Source: Planctomycetota bacterium (GTDB lineage: Bacteria > Planctomycetota > Planctomycetia > Planctomycetales > Planctomycetaceae). Taken from it: a stretch of DNA of 44,555 bases. This document shows, piece by piece, positions 12,889-20,823 of this stretch. The stretch lies in NCBI GenBank assembly GCA_027618475.1, contig JAQCEJ010000038.1, forward strand, positions 1 to 44,555. Reading direction: 5' to 3'. The notes below the pieces were generated by a model, which was not told where the DNA came from, did no database searches, and worked only from the letters and a program-made list of their open reading frames with translations. Positions within the stretch are counted from its first letter, which is position 1. Each line of letters begins with the position of its first letter. Made by a program: the position numbers and the translations under genes.

Positions 12889-13950
12889 CTATTTGCCGTT
12901 CGCTTCCCACAGCCCGTCGGCGGTGAAATTGTCCTGGACAATCGTCGCAGGCGAAAATTCATACGTCGTATATTTCGGGACAACATAATTGCCGGCGAAG
13001 CGGTTGACATGTTCGCCGCTGACGACGATCGGCAGACTCAGAATGCCGTTTGTGATGTTGACCCCTTTGCAGTTTTCGATCAGCAGACGCGAATAGGCGA
13101 ATTGGCAACCAGTGATCGCCATTCCGTGTTCGACGTTGCGACAGATGAGTGCATGTTCGAGATTGTTGTTGAACATGCAATTTCCGATTGAACCGTGCGA
13201 ACCGTTGATTTTGTCTTCGATCAGCATGCCGGTGACGTTGTCGCAGAAATTGGAGGCGGTGATTTTCAGATTACCCGAATGAATGGCACAGCCGATGACA
13301 TTGCGAAAACAGAGCAGCTGACTGGCGGTGACATATTCGGCCCGCTCGTCGAAACGGATGCCGACGAAATTTTCGTACGCGCTGATGCGATCGAGGCTGC
13401 CGACGCCGTTGGCCCGGGAATCGGGACCGAAGTGATTCAATTGCAGTCCCGCCCCGTTGAAACCGCGAGCGATGACCCCCGAGACTTCGAACTCGTAGCA
13501 GCGTTCGATGCGCAGTCCGACCGCGCCATCGTCCAATCGCTCTTCCCATGAACCTTCTGCTTCGCCGTCGAGCGTGACGTCGCGGAGACGCCAGCGATGC
13601 ACATCGGATTGAAGAAAGACATTCTTGGCGCCGTTGGATCGAATGATGGTCGCCGGTCCGGCTCCCGTCACCGTCACTCCCTCGGGAATCGTCACATCAC
13701 CAAAGCGGTAATAGCCGGGACCGATCGAGACCACCCCTGGTCCTTCGGCGAAGGCCGACAACAGTGCCGGTGTATCATCACGGTCTGAATCGGTGCCGTC
13801 AGGCGCATGGCCATCGGCATTACAGAAATCGGAGAGCGTTCGCGAGGTCGGTGCGGCACATTCTTCGGCGTTTATGGAAACTGAAATGAATGGCCCGACA
13901 ACGAGGAGCAGTCCGAAGAACACCTTCGTTTCTAACCTGGTCAACACCAT
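12889..13950 (-). CDS. Secreted right-handed parallel beta-helix protein
   Basis: A 353-residue protein starting at the ATG at 13950, with a signal peptide (basic start, then FFGLLLVVGPFISVSINA, cleavage near AEE). The mature N-terminus has DGTDSDRDDTPALLSAFAE followed by YYRFGDVTIPEGVTVTGAG, the typical entry of Pectate_lyase_3-type beta-helices found in polysaccharide lyases and tailspike-like proteins. The remainder is a ladder of short strands rich in N and G (NFCDNVTGMLIED, NCMFNNNLEHALICRN). No catalytic residues can be assigned. It likely acts outside the cytoplasm on, or attached to, polysaccharide. It lies 75 nt downstream of the lipoprotein gene on the same strand. Confidence 0.7.
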   Translation of the reverse strand: MVLTRLETKVFFGLLLVVGPFISVSINAEECAAPTSRTLSDFCNADGHAPDGTDSDRDDTPALLSAFAEGPGVVSIGPGYYRFGDVTIPEGVTVTGAGPATIIRSNGAKNVFLQSDVHRWRLRDVTLDGEAEGSWEERLDDGAVGLRIERCYEFEVSGVIARGFNGAGLQLNHFGPDSRANGVGSLDRISAYENFVGIRFDERAEYVTASQLLCFRNVIGCAIHSGNLKITASNFCDNVTGMLIEDKINGSHGSIGNCMFNNNLEHALICRNVEHGMAITGCQFAYSRLLIENCKGVNITNGILSLPIVVSGEHVNRFAGNYVVPKYTTYEFSPATIVQDNFTADGLWEANGK

Positions 13951-14025
13951 GTGCAATCCTCAAGCGATTGGTTCGGTGGAGGGAATCTCGCACGCGACGC
14001 GTCGTAGGACGCCCACCCGCAAGAC

Positions 14026-14670
14026 TTAGAACATACCGCCGCCGTTTCCACCACCCCCGCCGTTATTGCCGTTGTCACCGTTCTGGTTGTTGTTCAAACC
14101 GCCGCGGGTGAAGATGAATCGATAATAGTCGGATTCCGCTTCCATCGAATTGATGCCCGGATCGTACGCCTGCGAAACGAAGACGCGTTGCTCGGCGTCG
14201 TTGTTGCCAAGATCGGTCAGCACCGAACTGACAAGCCGTCGTCGCAAATCGTCGAGTTCGGGGTCGTCGTTATTCATGCTGCGTTCGACGATAATCGGGA
14301 ATGGTGCACTCCGCATGCGGGCGGCCATCTCTAGAAGTCGATCTTTACCGGCGGAGGTCAGATAGGCGGAACTCTCCTGAAAATCGTGGCGATAGAGAAT
14401 AAAGTCACTCGCCTCGCCGTTGGTGTGCATCGTGTGATAATGAGCCCGCACGACGCTTCCGAGCGGGTATCTTTCGGGGATCGCCATCGAACGCAAACTC
14501 CAGATCGACCAGCCGCCACAGCCTGCCGAACAGAGACATAACAAGGCGCACGCGGCCCATTTCGCCGGACGTCCCTTCCCGCAGAGTCGTAGCACATGCT
14601 TCGCTGCCGGAGACCGGGAAACAGTTCGGCCGGTACGAGTGAATTGTGATAGAAAGGCCAACCGGTCCAT
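14026..14670 (-). CDS. Lipoprotein with Gly/Asn-rich tail, next to secretin
   Basis: A 214-residue protein. After a basic N-terminal stretch of about 36 residues comes WAACALLCLCSAGC, a hydrophobic segment ending in a lipobox-like cysteine. The middle has SAGKDRLLEMAARMRSAPFP and DDPELDDLRRRLVSSVL, reminiscent of the OmpA-like or CpaD-like pattern in which a cumulative index region is arranged around a peptidoglycan-facing domain; this similarity is weak. The tail is NNNQNGDNGNNGGGGGNGGG. It begins 44 nt after the secretin gene ends and is likely co-transcribed with it, which supports a role as a lipoprotein partner of the outer-membrane pore. The exact family was not recognised. Confidence 0.6.
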   Translation of the reverse strand: MDRLAFLSQFTRTGRTVSRSPAAKHVLRLCGKGRPAKWAACALLCLCSAGCGGWSIWSLRSMAIPERYPLGSVVRAHYHTMHTNGEASDFILYRHDFQESSAYLTSAGKDRLLEMAARMRSAPFPIIVERSMNNDDPELDDLRRRLVSSVLTDLGNNDAEQRVFVSQAYDPGINSMEAESDYYRFIFTRGGLNNNQNGDNGNNGGGGGNGGGMF

Positions 14671-14714
14671 GTCTAAGCTCGCTGGGTCACAGAAAAATGT
14701 TTATGGCGATCGTG

Positions 14715-15647
14715 TTATCGGGCATACGTTGTCCCACGATTCGGCTCGGGTGCGGAGAACGACGCCGGCTGGATCTGTTGATCGTTCGAAACAGATTTCG
14801 GGGAGACGGCGGAGTATCGTCCGTTGCGTGCCGGTGGAACCCGATTCGGTGCCGTTTGTGACGTCGTCGGATAGTCCGTATTCGGCGACTGATAATTCGC
14901 CCCGGGAGGGGGTGACATCGGATAAACCTGCGGTGAATTCAATCGGGGAGCCGGACGCCCGGGACCGTACGGCTGTCCGGGGGCCAGTCGCGGCGGAGGC
15001 GATTGCTGATATTGAGGACTCATCTGTGAAGGCATTCGCGGCGAAGGATTGACCTGTTGCCAACCTTCCTGTCGTGGCGCCCGGCCGGCCGGTCCCTGCT
15101 CGTAGCTCCAGCCTTCCTGTCGCGGTGCGGGACCGGTGGGGGGCCCCATCGTGTTCCAGCCTTCCCTGCCGTTTGCTCCGGGAATCGCCGTGGCGGGCGA
15201 ATACCGCGAACCATACGGATTCTGCATCGAGGGAGCGGATGAAATCGGTGCCGCCGGTGCCGGTTCGTAACCGGGTTGTGACGGACCGGGGTTGAAGAGG
15301 TGATAACCGACCGGATTGCCCGTTCCCGAGCCGTATCCGTACGGAGCAAGCTGGTACACTTCCGTATCAGGTGCCCCTTCCGTCATACCCCAGCGATAGA
15401 GTTCGGGATCGTTCGGCAGCGTGACCTCATGACCGGGAACCGGAGGAACTTCATCGGCTTCCATCGGGCGAACAATTTCAGGGGTGACCAGAATCAAGAG
15501 TTCGGTTTCGTCGTTCGTGGCTCGTTTGGCATTGAAGAACAAGGGCCCGATGAGAGGTAACTCACCCAATAGCGGAACACGGTTATTCTGCGTCGCCGTT
15601 TCGCTCGAATACAAACCGGCGATGGCAATCGTCTGGCCTTCGCGCAT
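14715..15647 (-). CDS. CpaC-like secretin, 3' part (after in-frame amber codon)
   Basis: This 310-codon segment continues, in the same frame, the secretin encoded by 15648-17036. It begins MREGQTIAIAGLY, which in intact secretins follows TTVE directly. It carries the secretin signature VPLLGELPLIGPLFF and the last barrel strand ELLILVTPEIVRP within the first 60 residues. The remaining about 240 residues are rich in Pro, Tyr, Gly and Gln (for example QSPPPRLAPGQPYGPGRPAP), likely a disordered surface or periplasmic tail. The ATG follows the TAG stop immediately, so termination-reinitiation is conceivable, but there is no Shine-Dalgarno sequence in front of it. More likely it is the second half of one gene. 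Confidence 0.75.
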   Translation of the reverse strand: MREGQTIAIAGLYSSETATQNNRVPLLGELPLIGPLFFNAKRATNDETELLILVTPEIVRPMEADEVPPVPGHEVTLPNDPELYRWGMTEGAPDTEVYQLAPYGYGSGTGNPVGYHLFNPGPSQPGYEPAPAAPISSAPSMQNPYGSRYSPATAIPGANGREGWNTMGPPTGPAPRQEGWSYEQGPAGRAPRQEGWQQVNPSPRMPSQMSPQYQQSPPPRLAPGQPYGPGRPAPRLNSPQVYPMSPPPGANYQSPNTDYPTTSQTAPNRVPPARNGRYSAVSPKSVSNDQQIQPASFSAPEPNRGTTYAR

Positions 15648-15650
15648 CTA
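15648..15650 (-). other. In-frame TAG splitting the secretin
   Basis: On the minus strand the codons read ACC-ACC-GTG-TAG-ATG-CGC-GAA. Both flanking frames are the same frame and together give one continuous secretin. Homologues of this region normally have Glu at the stop position (TTVE-MREGQ), which is one base away (GAG to TAG). The cause could be a true nonsense mutation, a sequencing error, or suppression/readthrough. Confidence 0.8.
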
Positions 15651-17036
15651 CACGGTGGTCGAAGCGCGGCGCGTCGACAATCCGGGGATGCCGCCGACCG
15701 AGTTTTCTTCAGTCGTCTGGCTGAATTCAGGCGTAATTCTCATGCGGATCAGATCTTTGTCGATGATTTCGGGAACGACGAACAGCGAGGTACCGAATCC
15801 TCGAAAGGTCGTGCTCGTTCCTTGTGCTCCGCCAACGCCGACAATGGTCGGAACGGCGAATTCACCGCCGTTGATGAAACTGGCGGTGTGTCCGCTCATA
15901 ACGGTTAACGTCGGTTCGGAGAGAAATTTCACGGTGCCGTTCGCCGCCAGGGCGTTGATGAAGACCGAGATTTCACCATTCTCAAAGAGGCCGGTGATGT
16001 TCGCGGGAGTTCCGCCGGCGATCCAGCCGATCGCTTGCGATCCGTCGCTTAAAATGGCATCGATGTTGATGCCGAGTCGACGAAGCATCGAGCGATTCAG
16101 CTCGGCGATCTTGACGTGTAACATAATCTGAAAGTCACCGGGGACTTCCAGCATATTGACGATAATCGACGAGCCAATGCCGTTGTTAAGGCCGTTGCCG
16201 ATTCCACCGAGACCGACTCCTCCTACGCCACCCCCCAATGCATCACCCAATCCAGCATCCCCGCCCGCTCCGAAGTCGCCGTTCTGACCATTGAAAGTGC
16301 CCCCATTCTGCGTGATCACTTCGCCGCGAATGATCTGCAGAATCTGGGCCGCTTCTTCGCTGTCGCGCGCCTGGCCACGGACAATAATCTTGTACGAGAG
16401 AGGAATCAGATACACGCTGCTGTTGGGAAACAGCACGGCGAGTTTCTGTTCGAGTTTGCCGAAATCGACTCGGCGTTGTTCGTCAAAACTGGGATCGCGA
16501 ATGACTTTGATCAGGAACACGACCGGATCGGTATTGTCTTCGAACCAGATCGTGAGCGTCGTCGAACCGCGAGAGAGTCCGAGAACGGCGATTTCGTTCG
16601 GGCTATACGGGACGACATCGATGATCGCCGTATCGCTGATTGCCGTCCGCAAGATGTTGCTGCGGGCCACGATCAACTGACTGCGATGATGTATGACTTC
16701 CAGTTCGTCTTCGATGTCGGGAAGCTTTTCGATCATCGGGTGCAACGGTTTTTCGTAGCTCGATGTCGCTTGTATCAGTTGAATTCGCGATTGCTGATCG
16801 CGGTTTTCCGCTCGATCGCGGTGCATCGCTCGATTCGCATCGCGTGGTTCCCGTGACGGGAGCCGGGGCGAGAACGTTCGAGACGGAGGGGGAGACGTTT
16901 GCCGACTCTGGGCAATCAGGGGACTTCCCGGGCTGCACCATGCCCCGATAGACAGGCAGCACAGCATCAAAAGGAACCTGGGGAGGCCCTTTCGGTGTGC
17001 CGAGCGATCTTCTCTTTGGGCATTCGGTTTCAACAT
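15648..17036 (-). CDS. CpaC-like secretin, 5' part (type II/III secretion family)
   Basis: Starting at the ATG at 17036 this gives 462 residues before a TAG at 15650-15648. A signal peptide (FLLMLCCLSIGAWCSPGSPLIA, about 21-42) leads an Arg-rich linker, then a pilus-assembly secretin N-domain (about 112-180, with LIVARSNILRTAISDTAIID and EIAVLGLSRGSTTLTIWF), an N1/BON-like region (190-240), a Gly/Asn-rich loop (244-288), and the secretin core from about 291. This is the CpaC/RcpA type that forms the outer-membrane channel of Tad/Flp pili and related secretion systems. The protein ends at RRASTTV, just before the conserved (E)MREGQ strand. No Tad ATPase or prepilin gene is in the window. The open frame reaches 42 codons further upstream, but the chosen start gives the cleanest signal peptide. 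Confidence 0.8.
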   Translation of the reverse strand: MLKPNAQREDRSAHRKGLPRFLLMLCCLSIGAWCSPGSPLIAQSRQTSPPPSRTFSPRLPSREPRDANRAMHRDRAENRDQQSRIQLIQATSSYEKPLHPMIEKLPDIEDELEVIHHRSQLIVARSNILRTAISDTAIIDVVPYSPNEIAVLGLSRGSTTLTIWFEDNTDPVVFLIKVIRDPSFDEQRRVDFGKLEQKLAVLFPNSSVYLIPLSYKIIVRGQARDSEEAAQILQIIRGEVITQNGGTFNGQNGDFGAGGDAGLGDALGGGVGGVGLGGIGNGLNNGIGSSIIVNMLEVPGDFQIMLHVKIAELNRSMLRRLGINIDAILSDGSQAIGWIAGGTPANITGLFENGEISVFINALAANGTVKFLSEPTLTVMSGHTASFINGGEFAVPTIVGVGGAQGTSTTFRGFGTSLFVVPEIIDKDLIRMRITPEFSQTTEENSVGGIPGLSTRRASTTV

Positions 17037-17268
17037 GCGCGATACTTCCTCAGTAAAAAGATTCACTGTGGAGGAAGTATCGGAAATCGGAGTTGATCCG
17101 ATCGAGCCCGATTTTCCAAAGATCACAAATCTAACACATCTGACGGTCGTGCCGGTGAACAAAACACTTCCGACAAGGGGCTATCGGAATAATACGTGGA
17201 ATGGGTAAACAGGCTCCCGGTCAAATCTGTACTCTCCTGGATCTTTGTCTGTAGGCAACTACCAGTCC

Positions 17269-17384
17269 GTTGAAAATGAGGATGATCAATTTTGTGTGCC
17301 GCGAGTGGCTTGTCCATCCGTGTTTGTTCCGATGCCTCATAAGCACACTGCCGGACAAGCCGGCAGTGTCACCCATTTTTCAAC
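17269..17384. mobile_element. MITE-like element, family A copy 1
   Basis: A 116-bp segment with inverted ends GTTGAAAATGAG and CATTTTTCAAC (about 8-10 bp matching). Near the right end is a perfect 10-bp hairpin, ACACTGCCGG (17345-17354) and CCGGCAGTGT (17360-17369). A second, similar copy lies at 38871-39002. It ends 6 nt before the stop codon of the secreted Pro/Tyr-rich gene, so its hairpin may also act as that gene's terminator. No protein is encoded. Confidence 0.6.
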
Positions 17385-17390
17385 GCGCGG

Positions 17391-18212
17391 CTACCACGGA
17401 AACTGGGTATTTCGCTGAAAGCTCGCTTCGCCGGGGTAATACCACGGTCTACGATAACTGTAGTACGGAAAACGGTAATGGCCGGAGACGCCCGATCGAT
17501 GTAAACCATCTCCAAAATGGAAGTTTTTTGGATCGGACCCCGCCGGTACCAACGCCTGAGTCGAAGCGTTCGGATAATTATAGTTCGCCAGATACGACGG
17601 CGAATTAGATCCATAATATGAGGAGGGACCGCCACCATACGTTGTCACCGCCGGATATCCTCCCATCACATCGACCGGTAAACCGACTCCCCTTTCTTGC
17701 CGTACACAACTTTCTGTTCCCGGAGCACCTGCGTAGCCATGAATTGGCGTGCCGTGGGGAACGTATTGTGACGACGGACTGACAGGAGCCGATGGAGGGT
17801 TCTCTCCCGGCAGGCGAAAGGTCACATTCGAACCCTTCTGAGGCACAGGATAATCGGCGGGTAAAACCCCTGCCCCGTAATCGGGACCGTAATTCGCCGC
17901 GTTGGGATCGTAACCCCAACCCCTGACCGCTTGAGGATGCAGTGCCCGTGGTCGTGTGTAATAGTCAATCGGTTGCGGACGGTATTCTTTCCCGTTGATG
18001 GTTCCGTAGGGAGTGCCGTACGCTTCCTGGGCTTTGCGATTCAGATAGGTCTGCGAACGGGGAATCTGCCGAGGCGTATTGGTCGGCGGAGCCTGGAAAC
18101 TTGGATCGGGCTGAGGAACCGGAGGAGCAGGAGTCGCATCCGTTTGAGCGAACGCGAAGGAACCGATCGACAGGATTCCCAAACAGAATAGAAATACAGA
18201 TTTACGTATCAT
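17391..18212 (-). CDS. Secreted Pro/Tyr-rich protein, unknown
   Basis: A 273-residue protein with a clear signal peptide (MIRKSVFLFCLGILSIGSFAFA, cleavage before QTD). The mature chain is rich in Pro, Tyr and Gly, with stretches such as APPVPQPDPSFQAPPTNTP, RPQPIDYYTRPRALHPQAV and GWGYDPNAANYGPDYGAG. It has two lone cysteine-containing spots and no recognised domain. A good ribosome-binding sequence (GAGGAG) lies just upstream of the ATG at 18212. It is divergent from another secreted Tyr-rich gene at 18624, and the 400 bp between them probably holds both promoters. It may be a cell-surface or matrix protein, but that is inference from composition only. Confidence 0.65.
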   Translation of the reverse strand: MIRKSVFLFCLGILSIGSFAFAQTDATPAPPVPQPDPSFQAPPTNTPRQIPRSQTYLNRKAQEAYGTPYGTINGKEYRPQPIDYYTRPRALHPQAVRGWGYDPNAANYGPDYGAGVLPADYPVPQKGSNVTFRLPGENPPSAPVSPSSQYVPHGTPIHGYAGAPGTESCVRQERGVGLPVDVMGGYPAVTTYGGGPSSYYGSNSPSYLANYNYPNASTQALVPAGSDPKNFHFGDGLHRSGVSGHYRFPYYSYRRPWYYPGEASFQRNTQFPW

Positions 18213-18623
18213 TCATCACTCCTCGGGTTGGGAAGGGGGCTGTCGTATCGGGGACGCCGAATCCGGTTCAGCATATTGTCTCTCCTCAACTCTACCCCCT
18301 GGGACGGGAGAACCAAGTCGATTTCACAGTCTGTCGGTAGATTACCCAGTTGACGCAGTTGGTTATTCCTACAAAAAAAACCTCGCCTGTCACAAGATTT
18401 TTGATGCGCGGGGAGGATTTACCGGCTATCCGGCCGATACTTATTCTAAGGCTTATGTCGATTGATTCAGATATTGCGCCCCTGTTTCCCATTCTGCCGT
18501 AATGGCGGATGGAATGTTCACCGAAACGATGACCTCATCGTACGACGAACATTACGGAAATCGTGTCGCATCGTGGACGACCCTTGCCGGTGAGACCACG
18601 GAAACGGAGTGAAGGAGATTCTC
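18213..18623. other. Divergent intergenic region, no gene seen
   Basis: About 410 bp between two divergently transcribed secreted-protein genes. There is an A-tract (18373-18381, in TACAAAAAAAACC) and ribosome-binding sequences at each border, but no convincing ORF, repeat or RNA structure. It presumably carries promoters for both sides. Confidence 0.4.
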
Positions 18624-19247
18624 GTGTCGAGCGCACTTGGAACATGGATTGTGGTACTGGGACTATCTACCGGACAGGTCATTTACGAACCATATCCGAA
18701 CGACGGTCAGGTGATTTACGAAGAAGCCGGTTCCGGAATCGGTGGCAGCGGCGATCCTCTTTATCCGTACGATGGACCCGAACCGTGGTTGCACGGCTAT
18801 TTTCAGGATATTCCGGCGTACGGCGGATACGCCCACTTCCGTCCGCATAACTACAAACATGTCTTCGCGCAGAGCCAGGTTTCCGCCGGATGGGGCTTCT
18901 CGCCACAGCATGCGTATTCTCAGCAGTTCTGGCATCGCTACGAAGCGATGAGTTCGATGCGGTTACACCTTCCGAACTATCCGACCCCCGCCGATCCCCG
19001 GCGACCGGGACAACAGCCGGCCGTTTCGGATATCTATCGCCAATCGTACGTGCAACCGCGCGACGACTATTATGACGATCGAGGTCAGTACGCTGTCGAA
19101 CCCGGTTATGATCAAAGTTATGATCCGCGATACGAACAGGAATACGATCCTCGCTACGCTGCACCCGTGCGGAATGCAATACCGATGCGCCCCGCTTATG
19201 GTTCTCGACCGCCGGTACTCTCCGGGCCAAATGGTCGCGTCAATTAA
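18624..19247 (+). CDS. Secreted Tyr-rich protein, unknown
   Basis: A 207-residue protein starting at the GTG at 18624, chosen because AAGGAG (18612-18617) lies 6 nt upstream; an in-frame GTG at 18609 overlaps that site and is less likely. The N-terminus SSALGTWIVVLGLSTGQVIY is a short hydrophobic export-like segment. The mature part is rich in Tyr, Pro, Asp and Arg (YDDRGQYAVEPGYDQSYDPRY) and contains AGWGFSPQHAYSQQFWHRYEAM. Composition and the GWG(F/Y) word resemble the divergent gene at 17391-18212. No family is recognised; an extracytoplasmic location is likely. It converges on the Gfo/Idh-type gene, 25 nt away. Confidence 0.6.
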   Translation: MSSALGTWIVVLGLSTGQVIYEPYPNDGQVIYEEAGSGIGGSGDPLYPYDGPEPWLHGYFQDIPAYGGYAHFRPHNYKHVFAQSQVSAGWGFSPQHAYSQQFWHRYEAMSSMRLHLPNYPTPADPRRPGQQPAVSDIYRQSYVQPRDDYYDDRGQYAVEPGYDQSYDPRYEQEYDPRYAAPVRNAIPMRPAYGSRPPVLSGPNGRVN

Positions 19248-19272
19248 TTGCTCGAACTGACCGGCCGAGGCG

Positions 19273-20823
19273 TCAACGGTCTTCCGCCGATGGGCGGGTT
19301 AAGACGAACAACCCTTGCAACGCCAGAAACACAAACAGCGGCAGAAACACCAGCACTCGTCCCCACGCCAACAGCGTTCGCAACCAGGGGGATTTGACCG
19401 GTTCGAGAAACACGCGACCGTCGGGCTGAGGAATTTCGGCCGCCGTCAGGCGTTCGACAAATTGTGATCGACGCTGATCTTGAAGCAAACGACGAGCACC
19501 TTCGTCCTGACGAACTTCGATGACGAGCGGCCAGCGCTGTTGACGCATTTTGGACAAGACCTGTTTGAAATGGTCTTCTCCCGCGTCGGTCAGCGGCACG
19601 GCATCATCGACAAACTCGTGTTCGCGGAAGAGCGTGCCGTGCTGCTCGGCGAGCTTCACATGCGGACTCGGCGCATCGACGAACGCTCCCAGTAACAGTA
19701 ATCCCAGCACCCCCATAAATGTCGCCATCAGCAGGCCGCAACCGACGGCTGCCATCTGCGCTTTGAACTGCGATCGCTCGGAGGGCGTTTCTCCCAACAG
19801 ATCGATCGTACGCCGACGGCGACGCGAACGATGCGATGCGTCGAGCATTTCGAATATGCGCAGCGTCGTGGCCCATTCTGATTGCGGTTTCGGCACCGTG
19901 GGGGACGCGGCCTCTACCGGTCGTCCGACGGCATCGTGCAGAATGACATCGGTCAGCCGTGCGCCGATCTTTTCGTCGATCTGTTCGGTGGAATACGTTG
20001 TTGTGTTCTCGCCAACCGACAGCACGGCCGATTGTCCGTTCGCATCGCCCTTCAGTTCGATCGAGCCCGATTCGCCGCGTACGATGAGTTGCCATGAATC
20101 GGCAGTCTCTCCCGTCGAAACGCTCCAGGAGGCGGCGACATCGTGACCTAATCCGATGGTCGTCAGGGCACGCGACACCGCTCCTTCGATATGCCCCAAC
20201 GTGACCGACGTCAGATGCGTCGGTTCGCCGACGAGATAACAGATTACGTCGGCGTCGTGTAAGAACAGATCGTCGAGTTCGCGCGGCGGAATGAGCCCGG
20301 GAACCCCCTGCGACGCCGGTTTTCTCACGGTGCGCTGAAACTGCACTTCCAGTATGCGGCCGATTTCACCACCCGCAAGACGTTGCTTGAGTTGCATGAC
20401 ACCGGGATGTTCCCGCAACGGCCAGAGCGTCACCAGTGTCGCCGTTTCGTCGTCGCGCACGAGCGATAACTCGTGAATCCAGCTCGTTCCCAGTTCAGCG
20501 AGAGGGAGAATCGCCAACGTGCGCCCCATCGTCGCCAAAAGTTTCGCCCCTTCGAGCATTTCGGTTTGATCGGAAGCCACAACGATAAAATCGAGTTCGC
20601 TGTCGCCGGTCAGTTCGTCCCAGTGATCGCTGAATCGTGCCGTGGCGATGTTTGTGCCGTCGTGCTTCTGTAGCTGCGACGTTCTGACGCCGTAGGCGAG
20701 CACGAAGCGATCGTCGGCGATCAGTCGATCGGCGATTGTCGCGATGAGAGGGTGTTCTCCCATCAAGGCCCAACGCCATTTTTGTTTCCGCGACACGTCA
20801 GGGGGCTCCCTTCGCGTCATCAC
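19273..20823 (-). CDS. Gfo/Idh/MocA-like protein with C-terminal membrane segments
   Basis: A 516-residue protein. The N-terminal about 310 residues look like the Gfo/Idh/MocA oxidoreductase fold: a degenerate dinucleotide-binding start (WALMGEHPLIATIADRLIADDRF), SELDFIVVASDQTEMLEGAKLLATMGRTLAI, then a C-terminal sheet domain with GGEIGRILEVQFQRTVRKP and HDADVICYLVGEPT. The glycine-rich NAD motif (GxGxxG) is not intact and the usual EKP/EKPL lysine motif is missing (AILPLAELG). Two hydrophobic segments follow: MAAVGCGLLMATFMGVLGLLLLGAF (about 355-380) and WGRVLVFLPLFVFLALQGLFVL (about 485-507), with a soluble domain between them. This membrane-anchored, probably non-catalytic arrangement is unusual. 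The start overlaps the mtnA stop by 26 nt, indicating one transcript. Confidence 0.65.
   Translation of the reverse strand: MMTRREPPDVSRKQKWRWALMGEHPLIATIADRLIADDRFVLAYGVRTSQLQKHDGTNIATARFSDHWDELTGDSELDFIVVASDQTEMLEGAKLLATMGRTLAILPLAELGTSWIHELSLVRDDETATLVTLWPLREHPGVMQLKQRLAGGEIGRILEVQFQRTVRKPASQGVPGLIPPRELDDLFLHDADVICYLVGEPTHLTSVTLGHIEGAVSRALTTIGLGHDVAASWSVSTGETADSWQLIVRGESGSIELKGDANGQSAVLSVGENTTTYSTEQIDEKIGARLTDVILHDAVGRPVEAASPTVPKPQSEWATTLRIFEMLDASHRSRRRRRTIDLLGETPSERSQFKAQMAAVGCGLLMATFMGVLGLLLLGAFVDAPSPHVKLAEQHGTLFREHEFVDDAVPLTDAGEDHFKQVLSKMRQQRWPLVIEVRQDEGARRLLQDQRRSQFVERLTAAEIPQPDGRVFLEPVKSPWLRTLLAWGRVLVFLPLFVFLALQGLFVLTRPSAEDR

Follow-up and report, generated by a model that had tools for sequence, protein, structure and literature searches.

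The interrupted secretin gene and its neighbours

In the window (the whole stretch of DNA analysed here, 44,555 nucleotides of contig JAQCEJ010000038.1 in the Planctomycetota bacterium assembly GCA_027618475.1), the minus-strand frame 17162..14715 encodes a secretin with a single interruption, a TAG codon at 15648-15650 that is immediately followed on its 3′ side by an ATG at 15645-15647. The part before the TAG comprises 504 codons when counted from a TTG at 17162 or 458 codons from an ATG at 17024, and the part after it 310 codons. The features of the locus are:

15651..17024, minus strand: secretin gene, pre-stop part, with a likely start at ATG 17024 and a frame open from TTG 17162; it holds the N-terminal region, T2SS-T3SS_pil_N and the first two thirds of the secretin domain
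15648..15650, minus strand: in-frame TAG within the secretin domain, codon 505 from 17162; no stop here in the homologues read
14715..15647, minus strand: post-stop part, starting with ATG; remaining third of the secretin domain, then a Pro/Gln-rich tail
14026..14670, minus strand: intact lipoprotein-like, weakly OmpA-like gene downstream of the secretin, which it also adjoins in relatives

The first-pass annotation had proposed that two halves lying in one frame together rebuild a secretin, and this was borne out: the TAG is the sole stop between the two parts, and the halves cover complementary portions of the 169-position Pfam Secretin model (1-109 before the TAG and 112-169 after it), scoring 57.9 and 59.8 bits, each above the cut-off of 27.5. 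Read through, the protein belongs to PF00263 with 140.8 bits, and its T2SS-T3SS_pil_N domain lies in the pre-TAG half. An independent genome-wide Pfam search also flagged this secretin with one TAG, within an 821-codon frame. The frame is not a chance one, because in each of 27 other genomes the aligned homologue runs across the TAG site and has a sense codon there.

The best solved structural match of the secretin was 8odn (molecule name RcpA; E = 4.7e-35). Clusters of tad/cpa genes include CpaB, CpaE, CpaF, TadB and TadC; among the 27 distinct window reading frames scanned with Pfam out of 127, the two secretin halves included, there was no Tad match. The same genome encodes a second, intact secretin on C53, whose neighbours are RcpC/CpaB and a ParA-like gene that, from its place, seems to be CpaE-like, as well as a third intact secretin on C90 and a partial match near a contig end on C145. 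The earlier label "CpaC-like" therefore holds for the domain make-up, with RcpA as the best solved match, but not for the surroundings, since the CpaB/CpaE-like neighbours belong to the C53 secretin.

For the lipoprotein-like partner gene at 14026-14670 there was no Pfam match. Its structure model (mean pLDDT 66.1) returned no matches with E ≤ 0.001, and the best one, a weak match at E = 0.036, was the OmpA-like C-terminal domain of YiaD. In an initial comparison, all 7 relatives' stretches contained both the secretin and the partner. Overall, 16 of 17 stretches contained the partner, namely 15 of the 16 taken from relatives and the one around C90 in the same genome, the single miss being a relative, G076, whose contig ends just past the secretin. 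A Gly-Cys pair is invariant in the 16 aligned partner sequences. The relatives' stretches examined thus carry an orphan secretin beside a weakly OmpA-like lipoprotein gene.

The stop site in homologues and the frequency of stops in the family

A search with the first half of the secretin across 40 genomes, its own included, gave a match in 39. At the loci fetched by this search and by the genome-wide secretin search, 31 sense codons could be read at the TAG site, including those of the two other secretins of the same genome (the partial C145 copy ends short of the site): 23 encode Glu, 4 Asp, 3 Gln and 1 Arg, and none is a stop. Another 27 homologues, mostly orthologues and each from one of the 27 other genomes, gave Glu 22, Gln 3, Asp 1 and Arg 1. 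The expectation that glutamate occupies this position is therefore correct for most homologues (23/31 and 22/27), but Gln is found in the two most similar homologues of a wider, 170-genome search (G105 and G016), and for this reason the residue originally at the TAG site is uncertain. The comparison with homologues, for which the first-pass annotation had suggested related strains, placed a stop at the window's codon in 0 of 31 and 0 of 27 homologues. None of the homologues read is naturally split at this point; such a split was what the annotation had named as grounds for dropping its reading. The premature stop is accordingly absent from the orthologues read, as expected of a nonsense pseudogene. 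No readthrough signal kept at the same codon was found in the relatives read there; since no homologue read keeps a stop at the site, the TAG is not a conserved signal.

All genomes listed in the 40- and 170-genome searches, apart from its own, belong to other genera. No second copy of the same species turned up in a genome contig collection, which yielded one distant locus (Hyphomicrobiales), or among viral contigs, which yielded nothing, and records of its own or a very near genome may be absent from both collections. In the 170 family genomes, own included, 139 match the secretin at E ≤ 1e-40, and among the matches listed, at least 150 by a count made by eye, two have an internal stop, namely the window and G076. 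The G076 orthologue, from another genus, has its own TAG (L111:5130) 100 codons upstream, at a position that is Leu in the window, and carries Glu at the window's site; with a different codon affected and Glu at the window's site, this is an independent event.

As a background control we used the neighbouring IF-2B gene, residues 30-340, in the same 170 genomes, and observed an internal stop in 1 of 149 matches (G135); this relative's IF-2B gene (G135:C215:38402-39229) contains a single TAG within the region matched. With the whole IF-2B query, a stop appeared in 15 of 149 matches, 14 of which extend to residue 368 or later of 373; the whole-gene control is spoiled because natural gene ends get read through. 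Two in 150 for the secretin, a count that includes the window that prompted the search, against 1 in 149 for the control is no clear excess of stops. Single in-frame stops thus occur elsewhere in the family at a similar low rate, and many family genomes carry an orphan secretin, with a lone stop interrupting its gene now and then.

To date the change, we compared conserved columns (filled in ≥90% and identical in ≥95% of the 27 homologues) on the two sides of the stop. The window retains 65 of 65 before it and 28 of 28 after it; at a looser threshold it deviates at two columns on each side (of 84 and 39, respectively), which is inside the range of the other homologues. By this comparison the post-stop part shows no decay. 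With conserved columns intact on both sides, the change looks recent, and an old pseudogene is disfavoured by the undecayed post-stop part. Such intact conservation is compatible with a recent mutation, with an error and with readthrough.

TAG decoding and broken genes across the genome

The genome is a 5.93-Mb draft in 218 contigs with completeness 100, of which the window is contig 58, from base 1. Its gene content, with families such as DUF7133 and DUF1501 and numerous sulfatases, points to a planctomycete. Upon scoring 150 of 181 first-look candidates with Rfam and reading 48 tRNA genes with ARAGORN, we found no CTA anticodon among these 48 in the draft. Searching the DNA with a pattern for CTA anticodon loops gave 89 matches, compared with 250 for a reversed control pattern, and by their coordinates three of the 89 fall in these tRNA genes, one being the anticodon loop of tRNA-Arg(tct) and two starting in the D arm. 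An amber suppressor tRNA was rejected on the anticodons of the 48 tRNA genes. One 74-base tRNA-like gene (L081, G000:C114:27844-27917) has the anticodon TAA; it lacks the long arm that a normal tRNA-Leu has, and its anticodon stem contains a G·G mismatch. Release factor RF1 is intact (364 codons, 469 bits). No PylS match exceeded its cut-off, the three weak PylS_Cterm matches reaching at most 27.5 bits against 178.15, and pyrrolysine decoding was rejected on this ground.

Stop usage was sampled over about 8% of the genome (462,941 bases), made up of the window, 395,001 bases of stretches and two secretin neighbourhoods. Here TAG ends 17 of 112 other open frames of at least 450 codons (18 of 113 with the window's own), counted in six frames, so that some may not be genes. 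A scan of the same bases for split genes, which is noisy and may miss cases, scored 950 stops that are flanked on both sides by 60 clear codons. Eight of the best 40 were inspected by eye: the window's TAG, a TAA at C103:35827, and six that looked like neighbouring genes or non-coding tails. At each of the seven other TAGs among the best 40, another frame outscores the weaker side, and no second TAG-split gene was recognised in these 462,941 bases. Domain searches agreed: a TAG inside the matched domain was seen in 0 of 39 sulfatase rows and 0 of 56 ABC_tran rows.

Two other broken genes were noted in this genome. A PA14-domain gene is split by the in-frame TAA mentioned above (L130:15827 = G000:C103:35827), and a frameshift disrupts a sulfatase gene (L139 = G000:C203:36561-37585). 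The latter is the one broken gene in the 39 sulfatase rows, and none of the 56 ABC_tran rows has any stop inside the matched domain. The genome therefore has a thin background of broken genes with differing lesions and gives no sign that TAG is in excess.

The first-pass annotation had also raised an amber suppressor, and had advised looking for a suppressing tRNA and for other internal TAGs; neither was found in the tRNA genes, the 463-kb sample or the two domain families. Beyond the window's own site, nothing speaks for amber suppression or reassignment across the whole genome (the TAG of the G076 orthologue is at another codon in another genus), and against it stand the 48 tRNAs lacking CTA, the long frames that TAG terminates, the intact RF1 and the fact that the other nonsense split is a TAA. 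We regard it as extremely unlikely.

Explanations for the stop and comparison with known systems

The effect of the stop on the protein was placed on an AlphaFold model of the read-through sequence, which is poor (mean pLDDT 50.6) and was used solely to locate the stop among strands. Numbered from ATG 17024, its long strands span residues 412-422, 425-434, 456-461/465-473 and 506-518, and the stop takes the place of residue 459. In this low-confidence model, a product ending at the TAG is without the end of the third and all of the fourth of the four long strands, and therefore barrel formation would not be expected; judged against known secretin structures, neither would a pore in the outer membrane.

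A recent nonsense mutation in the orphan secretin gene is the most likely explanation. The earlier suggestion of a freshly dead gene gains support from a stop found at this codon in no other genome, from conservation on both sides and from the other broken genes. Under this explanation, ribosomes would stop at the TAG with RF1, the protein would end within the third of its last four long strands, and the truncated secretin would probably form no outer-membrane pore; the cell, which keeps two other intact secretins (one by CpaB-/CpaE-like genes), may tolerate the loss, and the TAG may be carried as a strain-level change. We infer both that the base at the TAG is real and that function is lost, and the intact post-stop part and partner gene are equally expected under some readthrough or a base error. 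As a general caution, a single in-frame TAG met in a draft assembly is most simply put down to gene breakage or to an error.

A sequencing or assembly error, with a sense codon in the organism and a working secretin, which the first-pass annotation had also named, ranks next and is appreciably less likely. In its favour are the single-base event with intact surroundings and an assembly that is a draft of 218 contigs, and the frameshifted sulfatase and TAA-split PA14 genes could be errors of the same kind; however, breaks of this kind within matched domains are few, only one other nonsense split was recognised in the 463-kb sample, and real nonsense mutations are common in bacteria. Low-level reading of the TAG by near-cognate tRNAs, yielding some full-length secretin, is possible but unsupported, and we consider it improbable. 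It is compatible with the conservation kept on both sides, as well as with the tRNA, PylS and RF1 results, which otherwise speak against readthrough, but no homologue read keeps the stop, and there is no notable RNA structure around the TAG (fold z-score -0.23). No Rfam family was detected in 13800-19300. Belinky et al. 2021 (PMC7918605) make the case that prokaryotes widely carry in-frame stops subject to purifying selection, and they include a TAG/CAG example, which lends readthrough some plausibility. That the TAG has been kept in the lineage as a throttle, inefficient readthrough setting a low dose of the orphan secretin, seems very unlikely; if true, expressing the secretin in full would come at a cost or would make a phage receptor accessible.

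Reinitiation at the ATG abutting the TAG, also raised in the first-pass annotation, is conceivable as translation, with 310 open codons downstream, but this codon falls in an ordinary column that has Leu in 27 of 31 homologues and Met in the remaining 4, and no Shine-Dalgarno sequence is obvious by eye in the 25 bases before the stop. The 310-residue piece would start inside the barrel and, by inspection, has no signal peptide, so that it would remain cytoplasmic. As no homologue read is split at the TAG site either, we give very little credence to a two-piece gene in which translation restarts at this ATG and the fragments assemble.

Among published work on planctomycetes, an essential-gene paper on P. 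limnophila mentions a locus annotated as type II secretion (PMC10632474); the word "secretin" is absent from its main text, which is therefore silent on whether the orphan secretin is essential. Background on crateriform structures is given in PMC11131199.

Compared with known systems, the secretin resembles the CpaC/RcpA type (8odn) in combining T2SS-T3SS_pil_N with the secretin domain, but differs in its long Pro/Gln-rich tail and in adjoining the lipoprotein-like gene, with no Tad genes found beside it. The stops described by Belinky et al. 2021 are similar to ours in being a single TAG in a gene conserved on both sides; their large-scale set, however, holds stops common to orthologues of at least two species, whereas the window's stop is found in one genome only (PMC7918605). 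A further parallel is the PilQ change Q428*, a nonsense mutation that arose in Pseudomonas aeruginosa under selection by a type IV pilus phage, where one nonsense substitution likewise truncates a secretin (PMC13170266); the selection is known in that case, whereas the window's secretin is an orphan known from sequence.
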